In this document: positions 22,967-37,971 of the stretch, in pieces
Numbering within the stretch: the first letter of the stretch is position 1
Layout: each line of letters opens with the position of its first letter
The notes under the pieces: model-generated
What the model was told of the DNA's origin: nothing
The model's input: the letters and a program-made list of their open reading frames with translations, nothing else
The model's database searches: none
Position numbers and translations under genes: made by a program
Source of the DNA: a virus
Strand: one strand, 5' to 3'
Length of the DNA: 64,000 nucleotides
Virus record (IMG/VR): IMGVR_UViG_3300010389_000013
Coordinates: 1-64,000 of that record

Positions 22967-25900
22967 TCAGAGTTCCATCAACCACCAACCGCGTAGTGAT
23001 GGTGGAATTGTTCTTGCATCTGCAGATCCTTCAATGTCAACCGAACCAGCGTAAACTAGACCGAATGATGCATTTCTAGACTGAATGACAAGTTCGCCTG
23101 AATCCCATGCTGTTGTTAGTGTTTGGTTAGCACCAGCGTCAATTCTTGATCCAGTTGTATCACCTTGAATTGCAGTAGCGATATTGTTAATCTTCTTCGC
23201 TCTGATGATTAGACTTGTGTTGTATGTCAGGTTTCCACTGAGTTCAACAAATCTGATCATATCACCAGTTTGAGCATTATCTGGTAGATAAAGAACCATA
23301 TTGCTACCGCTAGAAGCATTGACCATGTAGTTGTTATTAACTTGTAGTGGGTTGTCCTGTTGCTGACCAATGCCAGTTGTTGGATCAAACGCGACATAAG
23401 TGTGTCTTCTACCACCATTGCCAGTCCAATACTTCTCAATTCCGAAGGAGTCAATAGCGTTGTTCTGATAGATTCTAAAGTCTTTAGCACCCTCAGTTCC
23501 ACCAACTCCCGTTCCACCAAGGTTGTCAATGTGGAACATGACTTCAGTTCCCTGCTCATCCTCATAGAGCTTACCTTTCTGGTAATAACGCTCACCAAGA
23601 TAAACATCACCTTCGCGGTTTGTAACTCTAAATGAAGTCTCAGTAGAGCAGATGCCATTCTGCTGACAATCATCATAGTAGACTTTCAGATCACCATAGA
23701 ATGTAGCAGCACCCTTGAGGGTCATGCCATTAGTATTTTCAATGGGGTCTTCAATAGATCCGTCACCAGCGTGACCATCATCATTGGAGATAGAAAGAAC
23801 TAGAGTCTGTCCATCAGAACCATACATCCTGAATGCACCACTGTATAGTGTGACATCATCATAGATCTTAGTATTACCACCACCAAATAGATCAACAATT
23901 GGTGTTGTAACTGCATTAGGATATCTGATGCTCTTAGGAAGTTTAATCGCAAAGAATGCATCAAGAGATCCATCAACACTATCTGGCAAGAAGAACTCAT
24001 TACCAATTCTAACGAGAGTGATATAATCAAGTTTTGGTGAGATTAGATCAGCATCACGGAGTGTGATTTCTAGTCTTAGATCACTGGTGTTTGGTGTTCT
24101 TGCCTTGAGTGCAGTAGCACGTGCTCCTTGTGTTGCGGGAATATCATGTAGGAGTGTTGTTGTTCTGTCATACTTATCAAGTTTGACAACATTGACACCA
24201 GCAGCGAAGTTTTGTGCTGTTGTTCCTTCTTTTCCACGACCGCCAGTAGGATATCCAGCATTGCTGGAAGTTGGTAGGAAGAAATTACCACTCTGTTCGT
24301 ATGGAGTGTCTGTAATTTGAATGATCTCAATCTGAGATCCATCAACATACATTGCACATAGATCACCGACGCTAAATGCATCAAGATTTGACTGAATTTG
24401 AATGTTGCTAGTAGCAGCAACGATAGAAGTTGCGAGAGTTGTGAATGGTCCACCACTAATTACAGACTGTGGATTGTGTCTATAAACATGTACTGCATCG
24501 GTGTCAGCGGTATAAGCTGCAGGTGAAGTTCCAAATGCCTCAGCAACCATGAATACAGTACCATGGACATTTCCAATGGTTGTATCACCCGTGCAGGTAT
24601 CAACCTCAAAGGTTGTGATTGGAATTGTATTACCATTTGTGATGGTAAGTTTGTTGTTGGTTGGTGCGTTAGTAAATGGAGTTGTGCAGCTACCATTTAT
24701 AGACAGTTGACCGTTAATGGTTGTGGTTTCTGAATTGAAAATTGTATCGCCAGTTGTTGTGTCAACCTCAAATACAGTCTCTTCATTTGCAGTATCACAA
24801 CCATTCTTGATCTTGAACTTCTTGGCAATTTGATCAAGAAGTTCCTTGACCTTGAAGACTTCACCAATATCAAATACACTGTTGTTTGCACTTGATTCTC
24901 TACCGATGATTACATAATCACCGATGGCAATAGAACCACCAAACTGTGCGAGATAAACGTTCTCATCATTACCAACATCATCAATTGCTTGCTCGGTCCA
25001 AGTAGCATCAAACTGTACGATACACTTGTAGATAGCAGTTCTATCTGGATGTGCAGTGCTGACACCAGTGAAAGTACCGAATGGTTCTCTTTCAACAACA
25101 ATGTAGTAAGGGGCAATGCTAATTCTTGGTAGAGAAACAACTCTTACAAATTCAACATTGCTTCCAACTGAGTTGGTATTGTATCTGAAATTGGTGATGC
25201 CATAGTTGTCATATTGATATCCACTGATGACCTGCTGATAAATCTGGAATGTAACACCAGCACCTTGTGACTGAATTGGAATGTCAAGTTGCAGAGTGGC
25301 ATAATTCTTAGATTGATCAACCCATCTTACAAATGTTGGCCAAGTAGATGGATCATTATCAGTCAGATCTGTTGGTGCGATGAATCCCGCAGAAGTCCAT
25401 GTTACACCATTATCGGTGGAATAACGGATCTGTAGTCCTTCATTTTCAGCATCTGGTATTTCGCCACCATTGCTACCATTACCAACAAAAACATCAATCT
25501 CAACACTAGTGACAGATCCATTGTTGTTCAAGAATGAAGCATCAATTTCACTGAAAGTGACGTAACGTGGACCAGTTGTAGTTTCTTGGAAGATTGAACG
25601 GAATCCAAGATATCTCTGACCAGCGTCAAAACCACCATCGTTTCCTACACCAGTACCAGAATTAAAGACTCTAACACCGCCTCCAACGTCTGCAATAATG
25701 CCCTGTGGAGCATTGCCATCAAGGTAGGTGCCGAACTGTGCTTCTACAACAGATGCTGTTGCAGAGTCAGGAGAATCAATCAACAGGATGTCATTCTCTT
25801 GGAAGTATGGATTGCCATTAGCATCCAGTGACTCTCTGAGAAGTGGTAGATAGTATTGGTTACCAGTTAGTGCTGGTAATGTCTGAGGTTCAATCTCTGG

Positions 25901-28900
25901 GTTGCCACCGATGTTGGTGATTTCCTGCTGATAGTTAACACCACCCCAGTTGCCGCTACCAACCGTGTCAACCTCGTTATACTGAGAATCTCCACTGACA
26001 TATCTCTGAACGTCAATTAGATCAACATTGCTATTGAACAAGTTGTTGCCAAGAATACCAGTTACATGAGCAATTCTGTTACTTCCTGCTTGTGCTCTAG
26101 TTGCAACAAATGAGTATGATGCAAATCCACCACATAGAGTCATATCAGAGTTGAATCTAGCAGTAGAATCAACGATCAGATTGTTTCTGATTGTGGTGCT
26201 ACCACCCTGACCACCGATGGTGATCTGTGATGCGTTGGTAGCAAAGTCAAGGACAGAAGTTGCACTGTTTCCTGCGAAGAACTCAACAGTTCCTGCAGTA
26301 GATGACAATCTAACAGTGTCAGTTAGACCTCTTCTGGTTCCTAACTGGAAGTCACCAGCAGTCTTGAATGACTTAGTACCAATCTGAGTGAATGATAGTG
26401 ATTCGTTGTTGTTATATGCACCACCAATGGTGATCTTAGAGATGTTAGATTCGGTGTCTGGTGTATTGCCGATCCAGATGTTGCTATGCAGAGATGCATT
26501 GCCAACGTAGATGAACTGATCCTCAGTTGTGGTATTGAGTAAGTTTAGAGTTCCTACCTTGTTACCAACATTAAGTGTACCAACGAAAGGTGTATCAGTA
26601 AATAGGTTGACAGTTCCAGTTGTCTGTGAAGTTCTAACTTCAGCAACTGTACCGTCATCGCCATTGACTTCAATGTCATGCTCAAAGCGAGCATCATCAG
26701 TGAATCTTGATAGACCATCAACAACTAGTGCTCTGTCTAGTTCAGCGTTGGTTACGTTAATACCAACACGACCACCGTTTGTAGTAGCAACTCTTAGTGT
26801 TGCCTCATTGTTTGGAGTTGCACTATCACCACCAACTAGAAGTGCATTGTCCTGTGCAACCTCAGTTCTGTTAGCATATACACTGTGATCAAGGAAGTCA
26901 GAGATAGTCTTACCACTGATGAATGCAGTACCAACAACGTCTAGGTTTGCACGTGGATCAGTGTTAACATCAGTCCATGCAGTTTGATAAGCATCATGCT
27001 CTGCTCTTGCTACAGTATTGATACCAAGCTTGAAGTCACCGATTGTTCCAGTTGTGGTTCTGATTGACTCAGCACCAAGAACACCAAACTCTTTCCAAGA
27101 AGAGTTGGAGAACTCCATTCTTACATTTGGATTCAGAGCATATTCAGCAGACCAAAGTCTTGGGTTATCGTTGGAAACATTACCTCTGTTCTCAACGATT
27201 GCAATCTGACAAGATTGTGCGGTAGGATCAAATCCATTTGCAATGATCTGCCAGGTTCCATTGAATCCAGAATCACTGAAGTTACTGATTCTAATCTGTG
27301 ATCCACTCGTAACACCAATCTGTTCGTTGGATAGGTTGTTACCCCAGTTGATTGTAATGACAGTGCTGCCATTCATCTGGAGGTTAGCAATGTTCGCAGT
27401 TGGAACAATAGCGAAGAAGTTAGCGTAGATCCATCCAAGTGAACCAGTTCTGCCTACCTCATTGCCCTTGAGCAGCATATCGCCTGCCTTAGGACCACCA
27501 GCATTGCCGTACTGTACTGCCTGAAGTGAATCAAGTGATGTACCAAGACCAGTGCTATAGAGTGGCGTCTGGTTTGGTGCCATGTTGGATCCTTCAGAAC
27601 CAACTACATGGTTCTGGATCTTGTATCCTTGTGCTGCACCATTTGATCCGCGTGGGTTAAACTGGAAGACTGAAGCAGCAACTCTGTTTCTTGCGATAAC
27701 AATATCGCCATTTGTATCCTGGTTAAGGAACTGATTTGTCTTGTCAAGTGATCCATCATCACCATCGCTAGGTGATACGTTAGAGATGACCTGCAGTGCA
27801 TAGTCTCTAACTCTACCAAGAACGTTGATGACAACTGGTGAGTTGAATGTGCTTGGACGATCCTGTGCATCACCACCATTGACAGTGATGTACTCGTTGA
27901 AGGTTACAGGAGTATCAAACGTGGTAACGAGGTTACCGATATCTTCTGTATCATCATCCGAATCAACTAACTGTGCAGATTCTAGGAACTCTTCCTCACC
28001 AGTGATAGCGTCAATCTTACGGTTACCGATGTAGAGGTCACCGTTGGAGTTTAGACCAGTGTAGAAGACGAGACCACCATCTTGCTTCTTAGACTGTGCA
28101 TAGAAGTCTTGAGTTGGGGTGAGAACAATCTCCTGTCTAGCAGGTAGACCAGTGGAGTAGTTACCAGGACCGAAACCAAGATATTCAAACGTGTGGTTAC
28201 CAGCACGAGCAATAGATGGTCTACGAAGTTCAACGTAGAGTCTCTGATCAGAAACAACTGTGCTGTCACCAGCAATAGGAATACGACGATCTTCTGAACC
28301 AGAAGATGCATTACCCTTCTGTGCTCTAAGTCTGTTATCTACAGTAGAAGAGACCTGAGTGTAGGTGTTCTGTGACAGTGCAGGTTGCGAAGTGAAGTCA
28401 AGTGCCATCTCACGGGTCATTGAACCCTTGAAGTCGTTGACTGTAACTAGACCGTGAGTGTAGTTATCTGCAGCAGAATATGTTGCAGGAGGATCAACCT
28501 CAGTTGCATCCAACTGCTTGAACCAAAGAGGATCGTTCTTGTAGTTCAGTGGATATAGTTTGCTGATTGGCTGGGAGAACTTGAAGTTTCTGAAGTTACC
28601 CTGGTTACCAGCACCAGTTGGGAATGGTGAGATGTTACCACGAACAGCGGTTAGATAGTAAATACCATCTTGCTGACCGAAGATACGACGCTGAATCTCT
28701 TCCGTGTCAAAGATGTAGAAGGTATCTTCTAGTTCACCAGCATCGGTTACAGACTCAACATAGTATTGGATGTTAGCATCGTCAGTGATGATATCACCAG
28801 GAGTTACACTGTAGACTGCAGCACCATTCTGTCTGTAGTAGTATTCTGGATATCCCTTAGCGATAAGATCCTTGATGTACAGAGACTTACCAAAGTCTGC

Positions 28901-31900
28901 ATCTGCAAGTAGATCAGCAAATACAGCACCCTGTGAGAATCTGATGTTATCAAACTGAGAGTAATCAATCTTACCAACAACACCCTTGAGGATGAGGTGC
29001 CACTCATTAGTTCCAGGAACGTTGAGTACAGCATGTAGATAACCGTAACCAGAAGAGTTACCGAACCACTCAATTCTGTTAGTAGCATCTAGTGACTGAG
29101 TTCTATCAGCAACGAATGTTCCTCCCTGAGGAGCAGTAATCTTGACCGTTGTGAATGTCTCATTTAGTAGACCGAGGTTTGTAATGCCCTGGTCAAAGAC
29201 GGTCATTTCTAGATATTCATTGCCATCATTAGCGTCAATGAAATATCTACCAGACTGAATTGTCATGGAGACATAGTTTTGTGTCTCAATGATCTTGGCG
29301 TACTGAGTGCCACCTACGATGTCCTTCTTAAATGGATCGTATGCGTTCTCTTCATTGAGGCTGTTAGTGATAAAGTCTTGTGCGGTATAACCGATGACTT
29401 CATTTAACTGCACTGGGTTGAAGAAACGTGCCTTGGTTACAGAACCAGCAACAGGTCTCAGTACAAGTTTTTGCGGGAGAAGTTTTCTGGTCTCGTCCTT
29501 ACGCATCTTAATGGAGAAACCATTGATGGGATCACGGACTGCCTGCAGATACTTAGGAATGACATAACGTAGACGATAGATACGCTCATCTGCATCTCTT
29601 TCGTCCTTAATTCTTTCAAACCAGGAGTCATTGGTCTTATCTTGACCCGAGAGATCACTGTATGCAGTCTCATGGAATCTGGTGAGGATGCTGTAATCAT
29701 ACTCAGGATCACTAGAATTCTCAGAGTGATTCTCTACCTGTAGATACCACTTACCATATACAGTTGGGGTTGTACCTGGGGTTGGATATGTTGGGTCAAA
29801 TCGCATTGGCGATTCACGCTTATCAGCAAATGCCGAGAAGTCGTATGTACCAGGCTGGAATGTAATTGGGTTTACATCACCAATTGCATCTGCCTTGGTA
29901 GCGTGAATAGTAAATACTTTCTCGTTCTGATAACGTGCCCAGAAGAATCTATCTTCCTTGATTCTACCATTACCATCAGCAACCGATGGATCAGCAGCAT
30001 ATGCAGCACCAACTAAAGGTAGTGCTCCACCCTCGTTTGCACGGAAGAATACCTGATGACCAGTGATGTTATTGAATGGAACATCAAAGATGTGAGGAAC
30101 ATCAGTTCTGATACCAGAGTTGACAGCAGTATCAAGCACACAGGAATACTGGTGTAGATCATAGTTGTCATCTAGAACAAACTGATAAACATCAATCTCA
30201 ATATCTGGATCAATAGCTTCTACTTCAGCAGAGTGGATGTAGATACCAGCAGCAGCGTTCTCTTTGCTGCTTGCAAGCATCAACTTGGTTTGATCAGATC
30301 CATCAAACGAACCAGCGGAAGAGTAATCTTCTGGTTTGGTAGTTCTACCAGGAGCGATGACATAATACTTCTCGTTGGTAGTGAAACCGTTTGGAAGTCT
30401 GATCTTTCTCTTGTCAACGTCAACGTACTGATTAGTTACTGTATCGTAGCGAGGACGTGGTACAAGGCGTATAGGAGTTCCAGTCTCTAGATCGTGTGGA
30501 TTAGATCCCGAACCGTCTCTCAGGGTCCATACAGTCGCTCTAGAAGCGAGTTCTGTGGTGAGTTGGGTTGGTTCGTTTCTTGGAACAGTGTTGAGACCAG
30601 TCTGAATAATCGTCGTGATGTTTGCAAAATACTGACGAATCGTGTTTGCCTGGTCAACACACTCAGGATATGTGGTGTGCTGAGTGATCGTCTCATCAAC
30701 AGTAGGTGTATACTCGCTGGTGTAAGTTCCAGCGGTTAGAGTGAAGTATAGATAGGAGTTAGTGCTGTTAGCATTAGCATTAACAGAAGGACCGAATGCA
30801 AGTCCAAGTGGAGATGGTTGTCTCTCAATAGACTCTAGGTAACCAGGATTTGCAATGGTGTCGGTAATGATCTGGAACAGCGTTGTGATCGCAGATGCAA
30901 CATTCTGACAAGAACCATTAGAAACAGTTCTCTGGATGCTATTGAGTGAAGAAGGAGTAAGAACTGCGTTCTGTACAATACCGAATAGAGTATTGATTGT
31001 AGTTCTAGCATCCTCACAGGATCCGACAGAAACGCTTCTAGCAACACCAGCAAGAGATGCAGGGGTGGTTACTGCGTTAGTTACGATAAGAGTAAGATCG
31101 GTGATAGTTGAAGCAACGTCTGCACACTGAGTTGCAGCGTCAATAGTGATAGTATTATCAAACGTTTGAGTGAAACCATGAGATCCAGCGATCGTGATAG
31201 GATCGTTTCTCATTGCCTGAATCATCAGGTCACGTGCAAAGTTTAGAGACTCAACTGTCTGTGACTCTTCACCAGCAACATGAGCACCCTGTACATATAG
31301 GTTTGCCATGTCCCAGGTACGATCATTACCACCATATGCAGTGTTGTAGGTTACTTCCTCAACAAAGTCCATGATGTCATCAATACAATCCTGTGCATTA
31401 CCTGTTGGGGTTGTGAATCCAGGATTGTTTGCAAGCATCAAATCATATGCTTCATATGCAATCAGATTCTTATTAGCAATGATGAGATTACGTGCATCAC
31501 CATTACGATCAACTACAGGATCTGGTTCTTCGTAAGTGATGGTGTTGTCATAAGTTTGTGATAGACCATGTGAACCAACGACGAGAACCTTCTGGTTTCT
31601 CATTACCTGAGCAGCCATCTCTTTTGCCTGCTCAAAGACATAATTGGTCTCTGCCTCTTCTCCTGCTACATGAGCACCATGTACATAAGAATAGGATGCA
31701 TCCCAAGTCTTATCGTTGCCACCATATGCTAGGTTATCAGCAACTGCTTCTAGGAGATCTACAACGTCATCAATACAGTTCTGATTGCCACCAGGGACAG
31801 AGAATGCAGGATAGACAGTGAGCATTCTCTCAACTGCCTCATTAGCGATGAGGTTCTTATTAGCGAGAATGAGATCTCTTGCATCACCATAGCGATCCTT

Positions 31901-34783
31901 AACTAGTTCAGGTGCCTCATAAGTGATGCTGGTGTCCTTAGTCTGAGTCAGACCATGTGTACCAAAGATAAAGACATCTTCATTGCGTTGTACCTGAATT
32001 GCCATGTCCTTGGCATACTCAAATACACGAATTGACTCTTGCTCTTCACCAGTGATATGACTACCAGTTTCATAGAGATATGCAGCATCCCATGTCTCTG
32101 CGTTACCGCCATATGCAGTGTTCTCAGCAACTGCTTCTAGAACGTCTACAACGTCATCAATACAGTTCTGGTCACCACCAGGAACAGAGAAACCAGGGAA
32201 GTCAAGATGCATTCTAGCAACTGCTTCTGCTGCGATGAAGTTCTTGTTAGCAAGGATAAGATCCTTTGCATCACCATAACGATCAGTTACGAGTTTCTTC
32301 TCAGAGTAAATTGCCTTCTGACCAATCTCAATGGTTGTGCTGTCAATAACACGCTTAACATAGGTGTTATCTGGGATGACAGGAGATGCAGGGCGAGTAG
32401 CACCATTGTTTAGTTTGCCATCAGTAAACTGAGAAGGATCGTAGTCAGCAACCAGCATACCAGTGACAATACCAGAAGTATCGCCAACATTGACAATTGA
32501 GCTAGCAGCAGTTGTTGAACAACCCTGACGCTGATATGAGAAGTTTCTCATCGCAGCAATTGCTAGATCTCTAGCGTAGTTGTAACCCTCTAGAGTCTCT
32601 GTTAGTTCACCAGTGATGTATGATAGGTTATTACCAACGTAGTATGCTTCTGCTGCTTGTATGGTGTTGATGTTGCCACCGAGTCTCAAGTCTTGTACAG
32701 TAGCATCAATTAGATAACCAATGTCACGACGGCACTTGTCAATCGTGATGTTCTCTTTGATTGTGATTGCTGGATACTTACCAGTGATGTATCCATATGC
32801 TTCATATGCAATGAATTCTTTGTTTTCTTCAATTCTGTTTGCAGCGTCAAGGTTCTTGTGGTTGATTGTGACGCCACTGGGATTCAAGATGTCAGCAGTT
32901 GCAGTAAACTTCTTGAAACCATTTGGGGTTAGAGTTGCATTGAAGATGTTGTCAGCACCAGCACTTCTAGGTGTCAGTTTGACATAGAGTTTTTCATCAG
33001 TTCTTGTACCGATTCTAAAACCATCAATAGACGCTGCTGGACGTGATGTTGGATCAAATCCATCATCATTGCCTAGGTATAGTTTGGTATGGTTGTTGGG
33101 ATCGTTGGATGCCTTAACGTCAAGCGTATAGTAAGCATTCTTCTTCGTGTTGCCAGTAGTTTCTGGAACAATCTGAGGAGGAATAATATCAGTGATGTAT
33201 CCACCCTTATCCTGGTTGAACGCAAATCCTTTGAAACCAATTGCGTGGAGTGAGGTGTTACCGAAGTTGGAGTTAGAGTTGGTGATGGACATGTCACCAC
33301 CACTTTCCATTAGGAAGTGATCAGCGAAACCAACAGCGAAGATAGAAACGTTCTGGATGAATGCGTCTTCAGTTGCTCTAACGTGGAAGTTTCTCCAGTC
33401 ATCCTTCCAGTATGCATCACCCTTGGTGTGATAAGGAACCGTAGCAAATGCATCAGTTAGAGATGCTTGGTTAAAGGTATTAGTAAACTCGTCGTAACGG
33501 ATGAATGCTCTATCGTCTTTCTGTAGCGAAACACCCGTATACTGAGCGATAACCATTGACTTAAAGCCTGTTGCCTTAAGACCGTTTGCCCAGATACCGC
33601 AAATACCCCAGGTAGAACGAATGGAGCAGTTAAAGACATATGGTGATGCAGACTCAACGGAGTCAACCTCTGCCTTAACAACAGCGTTAGCACTCAGACC
33701 ATTCTGTGCCGTATAAGTTGTGCCGCTAACGAGACTTACAGTCGTTCCAAGGGCAGCAACTGTACCAGCAATCTGATAACTAAACTTCCTTGCATCTACA
33801 AGGTCAATAGATGAAATTGGGAACGTACCATTGAGTTGATCGTCAAGACCATTGTTCTCAATAGCGATAAACTGGTTTTTGAAGTAACCGTGGTTAACTT
33901 TTGTGGTGACTTCAACAGTGATGGTTCCTGCTGGTGAGGAATCTGTACACTTGATGCTCTCAATAGAGCGAAGGTCAGATAGAGGACCAACAATTCTAGT
34001 CTCCTGAATTCTATCAGAGAATTCGCCAGGATCATCAATAGTTGGTTGATACTCAGAGAATGCCTTTGCAATCTTTTGATAGTACAGACCTAATTCTTCT
34101 TTGTCTGCATATTCAAAGACAGTCAGTTTGTGGTGCGAATAGTTAGGAATCGCGAGTTGATCCCACTGACCATTTTGATAGTAAACTTTACCTACACCTT
34201 CGTTTCTATCATAAAGTGGCGAAGATGGTTCTAGGTCACCGTCTTTAATGGTGAACTGCCAGAAGTAACATGCACCAGTTACGTTAAAGATTGCTGAACG
34301 TCTTTCTAGTTTATCAGCAGGATCAGGAACGTATAGTGGGCGAACAACGGTTCTACGAAGGTCATAACCAACGAGGGATGAACCTCTAGGTAAGATAGCA
34401 CCACCTTCGGTGTTGTTGAAGAGATATAGTTTGTTGTTTGGATCAGAAATGTCTAGGTTTGAACTATCAGTCCACTCGTTTAGTGCTTGATCAAACGAAA
34501 AAGCATCAATACCATTAGTATCTACAAGACCTGGGCGGTTATCAATATAGTGATTACCAGGCATCAACATGATCGTGAACTGGTCAAAACGATCATTGTC
34601 AGGACCAGGAAGATACGAATACCTAGCGATTTCTAGGAATGCTCTCTGGATAGACTTGAATGGTCTAATTGGTGAATTACCTCTGTTATTCAGCTCATCC
34701 GACGCATTAAAATCGTCAGGGGAGACATACAAATACTTACCAGTTTTAGAGCTGATAAGGTTGTCAAGTCTAGTCAAAGCCAT
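22967..34783 (-). CDS. Giant virion structural/tail-fibre protein (3938 aa)
   Basis: Nearly 12 kb encodes one protein. The N-terminus (MALTRLDNLISSKTGKYLYV then GNSPIRPFKSIQRAFLEIAR) is typical of large cyanophage structural proteins. Residues about 830-1220 contain three tandem ~129-residue repeats (DRYGDA(R/K)DLILANKN...AYGG...), with a degenerate fourth copy before them and three short Cys-containing repeats after. The rest is beta-rich, consistent with a long trimeric fibre. It is read from a TATAAATA late promoter; the ATG at 34783 is preferred over a TTG at 34792. Confidence 0.85.
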   Translation of the reverse strand: MALTRLDNLISSKTGKYLYVSPDDFNASDELNNRGNSPIRPFKSIQRAFLEIARYSYLPGPDNDRFDQFTIMLMPGNHYIDNRPGLVDTNGIDAFSFDQALNEWTDSSNLDISDPNNKLYLFNNTEGGAILPRGSSLVGYDLRRTVVRPLYVPDPADKLERRSAIFNVTGACYFWQFTIKDGDLEPSSPLYDRNEGVGKVYYQNGQWDQLAIPNYSHHKLTVFEYADKEELGLYYQKIAKAFSEYQPTIDDPGEFSDRIQETRIVGPLSDLRSIESIKCTDSSPAGTITVEVTTKVNHGYFKNQFIAIENNGLDDQLNGTFPISSIDLVDARKFSYQIAGTVAALGTTVSLVSGTTYTAQNGLSANAVVKAEVDSVESASPYVFNCSIRSTWGICGIWANGLKATGFKSMVIAQYTGVSLQKDDRAFIRYDEFTNTFNQASLTDAFATVPYHTKGDAYWKDDWRNFHVRATEDAFIQNVSIFAVGFADHFLMESGGDMSITNSNSNFGNTSLHAIGFKGFAFNQDKGGYITDIIPPQIVPETTGNTKKNAYYTLDVKASNDPNNHTKLYLGNDDGFDPTSRPAASIDGFRIGTRTDEKLYVKLTPRSAGADNIFNATLTPNGFKKFTATADILNPSGVTINHKNLDAANRIEENKEFIAYEAYGYITGKYPAITIKENITIDKCRRDIGYLIDATVQDLRLGGNINTIQAAEAYYVGNNLSYITGELTETLEGYNYARDLAIAAMRNFSYQRQGCSTTAASSIVNVGDTSGIVTGMLVADYDPSQFTDGKLNNGATRPASPVIPDNTYVKRVIDSTTIEIGQKAIYSEKKLVTDRYGDAKDLILANKNFIAAEAVARMHLDFPGFSVPGGDQNCIDDVVDVLEAVAENTAYGGNAETWDAAYLYETGSHITGEEQESIRVFEYAKDMAIQVQRNEDVFIFGTHGLTQTKDTSITYEAPELVKDRYGDARDLILANKNLIANEAVERMLTVYPAFSVPGGNQNCIDDVVDLLEAVADNLAYGGNDKTWDASYSYVHGAHVAGEEAETNYVFEQAKEMAAQVMRNQKVLVVGSHGLSQTYDNTITYEEPDPVVDRNGDARNLIIANKNLIAYEAYDLMLANNPGFTTPTGNAQDCIDDIMDFVEEVTYNTAYGGNDRTWDMANLYVQGAHVAGEESQTVESLNFARDLMIQAMRNDPITIAGSHGFTQTFDNTITIDAATQCADVASTITDLTLIVTNAVTTPASLAGVARSVSVGSCEDARTTINTLFGIVQNAVLTPSSLNSIQRTVSNGSCQNVASAITTLFQIITDTIANPGYLESIERQPSPLGLAFGPSVNANANSTNSYLYFTLTAGTYTSEYTPTVDETITQHTTYPECVDQANTIRQYFANITTIIQTGLNTVPRNEPTQLTTELASRATVWTLRDGSGSNPHDLETGTPIRLVPRPRYDTVTNQYVDVDKRKIRLPNGFTTNEKYYVIAPGRTTKPEDYSSAGSFDGSDQTKLMLASSKENAAAGIYIHSAEVEAIDPDIEIDVYQFVLDDNYDLHQYSCVLDTAVNSGIRTDVPHIFDVPFNNITGHQVFFRANEGGALPLVGAAYAADPSVADGNGRIKEDRFFWARYQNEKVFTIHATKADAIGDVNPITFQPGTYDFSAFADKRESPMRFDPTYPTPGTTPTVYGKWYLQVENHSENSSDPEYDYSILTRFHETAYSDLSGQDKTNDSWFERIKDERDADERIYRLRYVIPKYLQAVRDPINGFSIKMRKDETRKLLPQKLVLRPVAGSVTKARFFNPVQLNEVIGYTAQDFITNSLNEENAYDPFKKDIVGGTQYAKIIETQNYVSMTIQSGRYFIDANDGNEYLEMTVFDQGITNLGLLNETFTTVKITAPQGGTFVADRTQSLDATNRIEWFGNSSGYGYLHAVLNVPGTNEWHLILKGVVGKIDYSQFDNIRFSQGAVFADLLADADFGKSLYIKDLIAKGYPEYYYRQNGAAVYSVTPGDIITDDANIQYYVESVTDAGELEDTFYIFDTEEIQRRIFGQQDGIYYLTAVRGNISPFPTGAGNQGNFRNFKFSQPISKLYPLNYKNDPLWFKQLDATEVDPPATYSAADNYTHGLVTVNDFKGSMTREMALDFTSQPALSQNTYTQVSSTVDNRLRAQKGNASSGSEDRRIPIAGDSTVVSDQRLYVELRRPSIARAGNHTFEYLGFGPGNYSTGLPARQEIVLTPTQDFYAQSKKQDGGLVFYTGLNSNGDLYIGNRKIDAITGEEEFLESAQLVDSDDDTEDIGNLVTTFDTPVTFNEYITVNGGDAQDRPSTFNSPVVINVLGRVRDYALQVISNVSPSDGDDGSLDKTNQFLNQDTNGDIVIARNRVAASVFQFNPRGSNGAAQGYKIQNHVVGSEGSNMAPNQTPLYSTGLGTSLDSLQAVQYGNAGGPKAGDMLLKGNEVGRTGSLGWIYANFFAIVPTANIANLQMNGSTVITINWGNNLSNEQIGVTSGSQIRISNFSDSGFNGTWQIIANGFDPTAQSCQIAIVENRGNVSNDNPRLWSAEYALNPNVRMEFSNSSWKEFGVLGAESIRTTTGTIGDFKLGINTVARAEHDAYQTAWTDVNTDPRANLDVVGTAFISGKTISDFLDHSVYANRTEVAQDNALLVGGDSATPNNEATLRVATTNGGRVGINVTNAELDRALVVDGLSRFTDDARFEHDIEVNGDDGTVAEVRTSQTTGTVNLFTDTPFVGTLNVGNKVGTLNLLNTTTEDQFIYVGNASLHSNIWIGNTPDTESNISKITIGGAYNNNESLSFTQIGTKSFKTAGDFQLGTRRGLTDTVRLSSTAGTVEFFAGNSATSVLDFATNASQITIGGQGGSTTIRNNLIVDSTARFNSDMTLCGGFASYSFVATRAQAGSNRIAHVTGILGNNLFNSNVDLIDVQRYVSGDSQYNEVDTVGSGNWGGVNYQQEITNIGGNPEIEPQTLPALTGNQYYLPLLRESLDANGNPYFQENDILLIDSPDSATASVVEAQFGTYLDGNAPQGIIADVGGGVRVFNSGTGVGNDGGFDAGQRYLGFRSIFQETTTGPRYVTFSEIDASFLNNNGSVTSVEIDVFVGNGSNGGEIPDAENEGLQIRYSTDNGVTWTSAGFIAPTDLTDNDPSTWPTFVRWVDQSKNYATLQLDIPIQSQGAGVTFQIYQQVISGYQYDNYGITNFRYNTNSVGSNVEFVRVVSLPRISIAPYYIVVEREPFGTFTGVSTAHPDRTAIYKCIVQFDATWTEQAIDDVGNDENVYLAQFGGSIAIGDYVIIGRESSANNSVFDIGEVFKVKELLDQIAKKFKIKNGCDTANEETVFEVDTTTGDTIFNSETTTINGQLSINGSCTTPFTNAPTNNKLTITNGNTIPITTFEVDTCTGDTTIGNVHGTVFMVAEAFGTSPAAYTADTDAVHVYRHNPQSVISGGPFTTLATSIVAATSNIQIQSNLDAFSVGDLCAMYVDGSQIEIIQITDTPYEQSGNFFLPTSSNAGYPTGGRGKEGTTAQNFAAGVNVVKLDKYDRTTTLLHDIPATQGARATALKARTPNTSDLRLEITLRDADLISPKLDYITLVRIGNEFFLPDSVDGSLDAFFAIKLPKSIRYPNAVTTPIVDLFGGGNTKIYDDVTLYSGAFRMYGSDGQTLVLSISNDDGHAGDGSIEDPIENTNGMTLKGAATFYGDLKVYYDDCQQNGICSTETSFRVTNREGDVYLGERYYQKGKLYEDEQGTEVMFHIDNLGGTGVGGTEGAKDFRIYQNNAIDSFGIEKYWTGNGGRRHTYVAFDPTTGIGQQQDNPLQVNNNYMVNASSGSNMVLYLPDNAQTGDMIRFVELSGNLTYNTSLIIRAKKINNIATAIQGDTTGSRIDAGANQTLTTAWDSGELVIQSRNASFGLVYAGSVDIEGSADARTIPPSLRGWWLMEL
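31120..32290 (-). repeat. Three tandem ~386-bp coding repeats
   Basis: Within the giant gene, matching segments start near 31459, 31847 and 32232, spaced 388 and 385 bases. They encode VDRNGDARNLIIANKN, KDRYGDARDLILANKN and TDRYGDAKDLILANKN. Related but diverged sequence continues to about 32860. Confidence 0.75.
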
Positions 34784-34823
34784 ATTACTCAACCGCTGCG
34801 GTTACTAAGATCTGATCTCAGAT

Positions 34824-35025: not shown

Positions 35026-35097
35026 TGGAGAATAGGGGATTTGAACCCCTAACCCCCTGCTTGCAAAGCAGGTGCTCTACCGTTGAGCTAATTCCCC
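35026..35097 (-). tRNA. tRNA-Ala (TGC)
   Basis: Acceptor GGGGAAT/ATTCTCC with one G-U pair, anticodon loop TTTGCAA (TGC), T-arm GGTTCAAATCC, discriminator A. It lies directly downstream of the tmRNA coding piece. Confidence 0.9.
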
Positions 35098-35104
35098 GAA
35101 AGGG

Positions 35105-35381
35105 GCATTTCACCCCAAAGAGTCTGTTGGATTAGAAGGTAGACTTAACCCCCATCTCCCCTTATGGGTCAGGCAACAGCAGCTGCTTGACGGGAGAATG
35201 CAACGATGTTATTCGCTGCGGTGTCAGATGTGTTTGCATCTATTTGGTGCTTATCCAAGCAGGTTTCAGTCACGCTCCTTATACCCCGTCAAAACCATGG
35301 CACCCCCTCGCATGGAGGTGAGGGGAATTGAACCCCTGTCCGAAATGTAGGTGGCGTCACCTATTCTCTCAAAAGAGAGAA
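35105..35381 (-). ncRNA. ssrA: Circularly permuted (two-piece) tmRNA
   Basis: The acceptor half comes first: TTTCGGACAGGGGTTCAATT then CACCTCC-A (35313-35320). Only five bases later comes the 5' half, GGGGGTG (35301-35307) followed by TGGTTTTGACGGGG. GGGGGTG pairs with CACCTCC, so the two pieces rebuild the tRNA-like end after processing, as in cyanobacterial permuted tmRNAs. The tag frame at 35237-35172 (stop at 35169) starts GCA after AAATAGAT and encodes 22 residues beginning ANTSDTA and ending ANNIVAFSRQAAAVA. That core resembles the marine cyanobacterial tag but is N-terminally longer and ends VA. Outer ends are approximate. It would rescue ribosomes stalled on host mRNAs. Confidence 0.88.
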
Positions 35382-35455
35382 AGCCACAAGTCGGACTTGA
35401 ACCGACGACCTACGGTTTACAAAACCGTTGCTCTATCCAGCTGAGCTATAGTGGC
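35382..35455 (-). tRNA. tRNA-Thr (TGT)
   Basis: Anticodon loop TTTGTAA gives TGT; T-arm GGTTCAAGTCC; acceptor GCCACTA/TTGTGGC has one T-T mismatch. Its 5' half contains the stop codon of the cpeT-like gene at 35433. Confidence 0.87.
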
Positions 35456-35912
35456 GTATAAACTCTAGGTGTCCCCATTGAGAACCCCAGATTTTTTGGT
35501 TTGTCTTCGGGTCAATCCCCGAGTCCATAACCTTGTAACTATTGTAACCTAAGATGATGTCGTTTGTCAAGTACGTTGTGACGCCTTTCCAATTGACCCA
35601 GCAGTTACAATCTGTATTGTGACCGTGGTACTCGTTTCCCACCGACTCAAATATTGTATCACATCCCTCTTTGTATGTCAAACCATCTAGAGTGAAATTT
35701 TTGACGCGAAATTTTTTCCCTTCTGGGCAAATACGCATCCGAAATTCCCTGTATGGATTGTTCTGGGAATGATAGTATGCTTGCTTACCATAGAACCAAT
35801 CTTCATCAATTCTCTGGTGGGTGATGATTATCCTAGCATATCGCGTAGGATGCTTCATTGCTTGTAAACGATTATCAAATGTGCCTTCTAGATAATCATG
35901 AAACTGAGTCAT
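35433..35912 (-). CDS. cpeT: CpeT-like phycobiliprotein lyase family protein, copy 2
   Basis: 159 aa. The family pattern is visible: FHDYLEGTFDNRLQAMKHPT, RYARIIITHQRI, then YGKQAYYHSQNNPYREF and a central Cys. CpeT/CpcT lyases attach bilin chromophores to phycobiliproteins; cyanophages often encode CpeT. The C-terminal eight codons and the stop lie inside tRNA-Thr, so the end may be recent. It is close in pattern to the copy at 36929 and sits downstream of pebS. Confidence 0.75.
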   Translation of the reverse strand: MTQFHDYLEGTFDNRLQAMKHPTRYARIIITHQRIDEDWFYGKQAYYHSQNNPYREFRMRICPEGKKFRVKNFTLDGLTYKEGCDTIFESVGNEYHGHNTDCNCWVNWKGVTTYLTNDIILGYNSYKVMDSGIDPKTNQKIWGSQWGHLEFIRHYSSAG

Positions 35913-36854: not shown

Positions 36855-36938
36855 TAGGAGTGGGGGGACTTGAACCCCCACGAGTTAATTCTCAGCGGAT
36901 TTTAAGTCCGATACGTCTACCGATTCCGTCACACTCCC
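36855..36938 (-). tRNA. tRNA-Leu (TAA)
   Basis: 84 bases with a long variable arm, anticodon loop CTTAAAA (TAA), T-arm GGTTCAAGTCC, acceptor GGGAGTG/CACTCCT with a G-T first pair, discriminator A. Its first ten bases contain the stop of the cpeT-like gene upstream. Confidence 0.9.
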
Positions 36939-37396
36939 AAGGGTTTGTCTGTTTTCTGGAATTCATATATGACATTGCTGCCCCATACTACTTTTCCATC
37001 TCGCCATCCTTGGTCTCTACTCTTATAGTAGGAACCGTTGAACTTCACGGTAGATTTTAGCATACCGCCGTTGATAATGCAAGCATCAGTTTTCACTCTG
37101 CCATCATAATGATCTCCAGCATCAAAGAACATCATATCACAGCAGTGATTGTGTTCTTTCCAGTCTGGTTCCCAGTTCTGAACTATGATAACTCCTTGCT
37201 GCTCAAAGACTTTATGCCATTTTTGCCTGTAAGGATTATCTTCACCTATGTAATGATACCACTGCTTTGATTTAAACAAATTGTCACCGATACGCTCCCA
37301 CTTGAGTTTGATGTGGGCATATCTGGCAGGATCTCTTGCTGCTTGAAACCAATTGTCGTAGAACCCTTCAAGTTTATCACAAAATTCTTTTACCAC
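36929..37396 (-). CDS. cpeT: CpeT-like phycobiliprotein lyase family protein, copy 1
   Basis: About 155 aa. Shows EFCDKLEGFYDNWFQAARDP, RYAHIKLKWERI and QWYHYIGEDNPYRQKW, the same blocks as copy 2 and CpeT proteins. There is no ATG; GTG at 37396 (overlapping the upstream stop, with GGAG ten bases before) or TTG at 37405 are the candidates. The frame ends inside tRNA-Leu. Likely acts with PebS on host phycoerythrin. Confidence 0.75.
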   Translation of the reverse strand: MVKEFCDKLEGFYDNWFQAARDPARYAHIKLKWERIGDNLFKSKQWYHYIGEDNPYRQKWHKVFEQQGVIIVQNWEPDWKEHNHCCDMMFFDAGDHYDGRVKTDACIINGGMLKSTVKFNGSYYKSRDQGWRDGKVVWGSNVIYEFQKTDKPLGV

Positions 37397-37971
37397 AACC
37401 AACAAACTCCAGAATAACGAATACCTGTTTGAACCTCGGTTACTCTATGTGGATACAGGTATATGGAAGGAAACATAATAATATCACCCTTACCTAGGGT
37501 TACAAAATAATCATCCCAAAAAACGAGATCACCACCAGTATAATCATCATTAAAATTTATAATAACACTGGTAACGGGTATGCCTTTTGATTTACCATCA
37601 AATAATGAGTAAATATGATCAAAATGTGGTCGCATCATCTGACCAACTTCATACTTATTAAGTCTAAGATTAGAATATTGGTAGAAAGAAACTGAAGCAT
37701 TAGCATTGTTTTCAAAAGATTCCGTTTCTTGATAATAATTAATGCTATCAAAAAGAAAAGGATGAATTATTTTTTGAATGTCTGGTTGAGGCATTAATAC
37801 TGATAATTCTTTAGTATCTTCAGAATAAGATGAATCCGATCCTTTATCATACCAAGAGTGTTTTTCCCAAGAACGATCTTCTATATCAGAAACTATACCA
37901 TCACATATTTTAGGTGGTATTACACTTTTTCTATGTAGAATATGATCACTTAGTTTAGATGAAGATTGCAT
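37390..37971 (-). CDS. 2-oxoglutarate/Fe(II) oxygenase
   Basis: 193 aa. Iron ligands are visible as MMRPHFDHI (HxD) and YLYPHRVTEVQTGIRYS (distal His and Arg), with DDYTGGDLVFWDD and GKGDIIMFP between, the usual P4H-type core. Substrate unknown. It overlaps the start of the cpeT-like gene by seven bases, so the two are probably co-translated. Confidence 0.85.
   Translation of the reverse strand: MQSSSKLSDHILHRKSVIPPKICDGIVSDIEDRSWEKHSWYDKGSDSSYSEDTKELSVLMPQPDIQKIIHPFLFDSINYYQETESFENNANASVSFYQYSNLRLNKYEVGQMMRPHFDHIYSLFDGKSKGIPVTSVIINFNDDYTGGDLVFWDDYFVTLGKGDIIMFPSIYLYPHRVTEVQTGIRYSGVCWLW

Follow-up and report, generated by a model that had tools for sequence, protein, structure and literature searches.

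A two-piece tmRNA with a remodelled tag frame in a cyanomyovirus tRNA cluster

Setting and anatomy of the tmRNA gene

The DNA considered here (the window) comprises 64000 bases out of a 64151-base virus record. It is a cyanomyovirus fragment, as judged from DNA matches to T4-like Synechococcus phages (e.g. S-H9-1, S-WAM2 and S-RSM4) and from its proteins, which include tail fibre, baseplate hub and CpeT-like antenna proteins. On the minus strand, the genes run in the order tRNA-Thr, tmRNA, tRNA-Ala, tRNA-Asn and tRNA-Asp. The tRNA-Thr(UGU) gene (35382-35455) lies directly upstream of the tmRNA (35102-35381) and tRNA-Ala(UGC) (35026-35097) directly downstream, both on the same strand, and their borders at 35382 and 35097 agree with the placement that had been proposed from the sequence-only reading of this DNA. 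Two CpeT-like antenna protein genes (35433-35912 and 36929-37405) are found just upstream of the tRNA/tmRNA cluster, and the first of these frames overlaps the 5′ end of tRNA-Thr. The window also holds an unusually long open frame of 3941 residues (22967-34792) that matches short tail fibre and tail fibre families. Promoter-like sites upstream of the cluster (35681-35653 and 35570-35541, 11/12 matches) were not used because the number of such sites in the region does not exceed chance, and a terminator call at 35320-35301 is the tmRNA acceptor stem itself.

That the phage encodes a circularly permuted tmRNA, as the earlier reading had claimed, was borne out by covariance-model search and by ARAGORN. 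The cyanobacterial model RF01851 (cyano_tmRNA) matches 35398-35102 over all 288 model positions with 165.8 bits (gathering score 70, E 6.5e-46), the permuted model RF04321 (tmRNA_permuted) scores 86 bits, and ARAGORN calls a permuted tmRNA (tmRNA*) with a tag identical to the one first read from the DNA. A second, one-piece tmRNA called by ARAGORN at 35026-35287 was rejected; it is completed by the 3′ half of the adjoining tRNA-Ala, and such a call recurs in just two other loci.

The acceptor piece begins directly after tRNA-Thr with a 5′ hairpin (UUCUCUC-UUUU-GAGAGAA, 35364-35381; model alignment and fold), continues through the T arm (AGGGG-UUCAAUU-CCCCU, 35321-35337; covariance-model alignment) and ends in the acceptor 3′ strand CACCUCC (35320-35314) with discriminator A73 at 35313; a CCA end is absent from the encoded sequence. 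After a 5-nt spacer, UGCGA (35308-35312), whose removal would be expected to yield two RNA pieces, the coding piece opens with the acceptor 5′ strand GGGGGUG (35301-35307). The suggested order of acceptor piece, five-base gap and coding piece thus stands, and GGGGGTG and CACCTCC rebuild the stem with 7/7 pairs, including the G3-U70 alanine identity pair. Towards its 3′ end the coding piece carries a pseudoknot (35120-35159), with stem GGGGGU/ACCUUC and a loop AGUCU that pairs with AGACU, followed by a 3′ terminal hairpin, GGGGUGAAAUGCCCC (35102-35116), placed by model alignment and phage comparison.

For comparison, a permuted tRNA-like-domain pattern was used to collect 74 viral stretches and at least 120 host stretches. 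All seven acceptor pairs are formed and G3-U70 is kept in 81/81 phages and in the 120/120 hosts listed, bearing in mind that the search pattern fixed U70 and some other acceptor positions while leaving position 3 free, so that part of the stem was pre-selected. The phage stems differ from one another by compensatory changes (GGGGGTG/CACCTCC, GGGGATG/CATCTCC, GGGGGCG/CGCTTCC and GGGGACG/CGTCTCC) and from the host stem GGGGCTG/CAGCTCC. The spacer measures 4-9 nt in phages and 5-25 nt in hosts among the matches listed. The conserved pseudoknot expected of a genuine tmRNA was recovered in relatives, its pairs being kept by compensatory changes across 32 unique phage rows of the class with long tags described below; no downstream pseudoknot was apparent by eye in two examples of the short class (loci L023 and L015).

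The tag frame and its hairpins

The tag frame occupies 35237-35172 (22 codons) and closes with a UGA stop codon at 35171-35169, located from the sequence and by ARAGORN. Its 22 residues fall into an N-terminal extension of seven codons, ANTSDTA (35217-35237), a core, ANNIVAFSR (35190-35216), and a C-terminal module, QAAAVA (35172-35189), which corresponds to the host-like module QAAPVAA shortened by one codon. Tag sequences were legible in 71 phage and 118 host loci, with ANNIVRFSRQAAPVAA as the host tag. Among the 118 host tags listed, all have 16 residues except for one of 17 by our parsing, and they end in PVAA (116) or LVAA (2), in line with the length of about 16 residues and the PVAA end that the earlier reading gave for marine cyanobacterial tags. 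ARAGORN host tags beginning VTANN or AKPVTANN were artefacts of start choice and were trimmed. The window tag lacks this host trait of roughly 16 residues ending (P/L)VAA, which is not a defining trait of tmRNA; its ending, AAVA against (P/L)VAA in the hosts listed, upholds the altered AAAVA terminus first noticed in the sequence.

Among the 71 phage tmRNAs there are 25 distinct tags, in two classes. In the long class (53 sequences) the tags have 21-31 residues and are built from A[NK]xxxxA, ANNIV[AV]F[ST]R and a C-terminal module that is 5 to 15 residues long; in the short class (18 sequences) they have 14-16 residues, lack the extension and end mostly in AVAV, VVAV or PSLV. The enlarged tag with a seven-residue extension is a real feature, present in the 53 long-class phage sequences and absent from the hosts sampled. 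Phage tag ends include TVAA, LATA, LVTA, AAVA, AVAV and PSLV. Since one extension occurs with different C-terminal modules (ANTSDSA with STVAA, TRTLATA or TRELATA; ANTSDTA with STVAA or QAAAVA), the C-terminus behaves as an exchangeable module. Within the short class, five loci (L023, L061, L027, L058 and L080) share the tag ANKIVSFRRTAVAV and three (L015, L035 and L066) have ANKIVAFSRTS[VL]PSLV; ribonucleotide reductase and primase genes lie near the tmRNA in two of the short-class contigs checked. The S-SSM7 group (L006, L017, L016, L018 and L040) has 31-residue tags with an extra near-perfect hairpin inside the tag (UUCUCUCGUAUUCUUACGAGAGAA in L006), which encodes SRILTRE-like residues.

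An A at position -4 is a resume determinant in E. coli tmRNA. It precedes the outer alanine codon in 71/71 phages, whereas in the long class this position is C or T ahead of the inner, core alanine codon. Measured from the conserved GAC of the tRNA-like domain, the resume codon lies at a distance of 50-53 in hosts among the matches listed; in phages the outer alanine lies at 49-52, or at 42-43 in those lacking a small hairpin, and the inner alanine of the long class at 63-72. Because host-like spacing and A(-4) fit the outer alanine only, we take it as the resume codon, which in the window is GCA at 35237-35235. By these two criteria the first alanine of the extension is the predicted resume codon and the extension a translated frame, and the same evidence rules out the extension as an artefact of ARAGORN.

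Selection on the tag differs between its parts. Among unique long-class sequences, the core shows pS 0.420 and pN 0.012 (ratio 0.03), with off-frame controls on the same DNA giving pN/pS of 6.3 and 4.1; in the extension pN/pS is 0.60, with off-frame values of 1.35 and 1.16 for the long class. Given ratios of 0.03 and 0.60, these comparisons indicate that the core is held as a peptide under strong purifying selection and that the extension peptide is constrained loosely. The result bears on a reading in which the phage gene serves for rescue only, as a backup or resistant copy for host tmRNA that is depleted or cut by phage or defence nucleases, with differences in the tag being neutral. Such a role would suit the location inside a tRNA cluster, the acceptor stem unlike that of the host copy, and the retention of the tRNA-like domain, G3-U70, pseudoknot and hairpins while the tag ends wander. 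However, conservation of ANNIVAFSR as a peptide, with silent codon changes, means that the tag is not free, and we consider this reading possible but rather doubtful.

The resume codon of the window is predicted to lie within a hairpin, UAGAUG-caaaca-CAUCUG (35225-35242), which also contains the A at -4. In the long class this takes the form (U)AGAUG-6 nt-CAUCU(G), with extension codons 3-5 as the 3′ arm, and 75/84 cells are paired in register compared with 18-34 in shifted registers. In the AKTDTPA group the hairpin has switched to UAUCUG/CAGAUA, with two pairs altered on both sides and Ser4 changed to Asp. Single resume hairpins fold modestly (mean z -1.3), so the argument for this element rests on covariation, possibly from a small number of events. 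In hosts the resume site is occupied by another hairpin (GCGAAC/GUUCGU or GCUAAC/GUUAGU). As to the origin of the extension, a tandem duplication of the core is tempting (ANNIDTA-ANNIVAF) and was rejected: a clear win over shuffles was obtained in 1/20 sequences only, and that one local match has an uncorrected p of about 0.007. Most short-class phages have ACAGAT directly before ANKIV or ANNIV, as does the long class before its resume codon, and this shared context is consistent with insertion of the extension after the resume codon.

A second hairpin (35155-35197; MFE -19.2 kcal/mol, z -2.99) holds the C-terminal tag codons and the stop. Each of the classes folded places its last tag codons and stop in such a hairpin, although the sequences are unrelated (z from -1.8 to -6.3). 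Relative to QAAPVAA, the one-codon-shorter QAAAVA of the window leaves the stem of this hairpin intact and reduces its loop from 7 to 4 nt. The change in the peptide thus appears to be driven in part by RNA structure, with the extension doubling as a hairpin arm and the C-terminal codons lying in the second hairpin. That two hairpins may explain much of the peptide difference is absent from the sequence-only account.

Relatives and lineage

At E 1e-4, matches in the phage collection to the tmRNA itself were found in 16 records representing five or six named phages, namely S-CAM1, S-CAM3, S-SSM7/S-SSM6a, Sf-FS3 and Marine virus AG-345-P14. These are direct relatives of the window gene that differ in their tags: ANTSDSAANNIVAFSRSTVAA, AKSSDTA...DELVTA, AKTSDVA...TRELATA and AKTDTPA...IRQLATA. 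With relatives in only 16 phage records at the search sensitivity used, the tmRNA would seem dispensable for most cyanophages. A BLAST search with a short-class locus returned mostly tRNA and no named short-class phage among the matches listed. GenBank features under the matches inspected read 'hypothetical protein' or nothing, and none of these records annotates the tmRNA. 'Hypothetical protein' coding sequences overlap the tmRNA in S-CAM3 (L002 555-695), S-SSM7 (L006 604-822) and Sf-FS3 (L001 936-1145). The overlap is limited to the tmRNA 3′ end in Sf-FS3; the calls in S-CAM3 and S-SSM7 are likely spurious.

In a tmRNA tree, a branch with 100/100 support parts the hosts from all phage copies, among which the long and short classes are partly mixed; the tree is unrooted, was built from 167 columns leaving out the tag and has bootstrap values that are not fully settled. 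Given this separation, the tmRNA looks like a long-term phage-resident lineage, and recent capture from a host finds no support there. The same split, together with the compensatory pairs and purifying selection, in the main refutes the notion of a passive relic, i.e. a host gene acquired by chance and now decaying. Sporadic occurrence among cyanophages is what such a relic would predict, but we find the relic reading scarcely credible. One locus on the phage side, L046, is a viral contig that carries psbA; its tag (ANNIVSFSRQAAPVAA) resembles that of hosts and so, probably, does its acceptor stem. It could be an intermediate, or have been acquired more recently.

Proposed function and the fate of tagged proteins

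We estimate a probability of roughly 0.8 that the gene specifies a functional, phage-resident two-piece tmRNA which is processed and charged by the host, acts with host SmpB to rescue ribosomes during lysis, and adds a probable degradation tag whose difference from the host tag is hairpin-driven. The anatomy, pairings, translated frame, selection on the core peptide and phage-only lineage are established by comparison of sequences, and from them we infer processing, charging, use during infection and proteolysis along the following lines. The transcript would be cut by host tRNA-processing enzymes, with RNase P acting at G1 and a 3′ processing enzyme at A73, leaving acceptor and coding pieces held together by the acceptor stem and by the helix beneath it. 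The host would add CCA, and alanyl-tRNA synthetase would charge the molecule via G3-U70. Host SmpB would then bring it to ribosomes that have stalled on truncated mRNAs, such as are expected in lytic infection, and the ribosome would switch to GCA at 35237, add alanine plus ANTSDTAANNIVAFSRQAAAVA, and stop. The main gain for the phage is probably the freed ribosome, and the tag, with its small nonpolar end, most likely continues to signal degradation. The difference from hosts would have arisen as the phage lineage rebuilt the resume and tag-end hairpins but retained the frame, the core peptide and a nonpolar end. Points counted against this reading are the 5-nt spacer (some hosts also have 5 nt), the weak constraint on the extension peptide and the patchy distribution among cyanophages.

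SmpB would have to come from the host, since no SmpB gene was found in 16 phage records, four of which are complete named phage genomes, in a search that matched 10/14 control genomes. Lack of a phage SmpB would also be compatible with a decoy that inhibits host trans-translation. For this there is precedent in the molecule of mycobacteriophage DS6A, which consists of the tRNA-like domain only and possibly titrates SmpB (PMC4131195). Unlike the DS6A form, the window tmRNA has a full tag frame, a resume determinant, a stop codon and a selected peptide, all superfluous for a decoy, which makes this explanation very improbable. Other mycobacteriophage tmRNAs and that of Bacillus phage G are likewise phage-encoded, but belong to hosts and lineages unrelated to cyanobacteria (PMC4131195).

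The first reading of this DNA had raised the further idea that the phage may redirect ribosome rescue, or tag host products for another fate than the host tmRNA does. As a phage-specific degron, the altered tag would make decay slower or faster, or direct it to a different protease, to the benefit of the phage. The VAA end is invariant among the host matches listed, and the 25 phage tags vary at the penultimate residue (A, T, P, V or L) and the last (A or V), the latter being nonpolar in 25/25. Terminal residues do make a difference in a cyanobacterium: of three ssrA tags compared in Synechocystis, LVA was the strongest, AAV weaker and ASV weakest (PMC3446811). Yet some phage tags have host-like ends (QAAPVAA, STVAA), an RNA hairpin constrains the C-terminal codons such that drift within this constraint can explain the change, and the -VA end of the window tag resembles the strong degron. 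By analogy across tags and species, the window tag may be degraded well, and slower decay is easier to envisage for phage tags with -AV or -LV ends. It is plausible that tagged proteins meet a different fate, though we hold the degron reading, too, as possible but rather doubtful; that the remodelled tag is a device which gives tagged proteins a phage-chosen fate during takeover, for instance slower ClpXP degradation or another protease, strikes us as unlikely, if far from negligible.

The two-piece tmRNA of the cyanobacterial hosts (RF01851; Synechococcus, Prochlorococcus, Cyanobium) shares with the phage gene the permuted order, the acceptor stem with G3-U70, the resume context, the tag core ANNIV-FSR, the tag-end hairpin and the pseudoknot. 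The phage gene differs in its seven-codon extension and new resume hairpin, its altered C-terminal module, its other acceptor pairs and its own lineage. Phage-borne two-piece tmRNAs were already known, as the tmRNA passages of PMC9004378 make clear: 53 had been counted, 50 of them from marine or aquatic samples, and in the tree given there the cyanobacterial-type ones are shared with phages. Those of Methylophilales phage Melnitz and marine pelagimyophages are likewise two-piece and from marine phages, but of the alphaproteobacterial type (PMC9004378). These passages hold no discussion of altered tags or resume hairpins. A tmRNA database contains 79 phage sequences (PMC11915505). No description of remodelled phage tags was found in the part of the tmRNA literature that was searched. 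New here are an extension that, judging by covariation, doubles as an arm of the resume hairpin, and C-terminal codons predicted to sit in a second hairpin.

Several public phage genomes carry an unannotated tmRNA, some under overlapping 'hypothetical protein' calls, and viruses appear to remodel the marking of failed proteins. The rebuilding of a resume-codon hairpin via translated codons lets one see directly how, in tmRNA, RNA structure and peptide limit one another. The phage tag ends and the two tag classes form a natural set of degron variants that bears on why phages carry tmRNA, be it for ribosome release or for control of protein decay.
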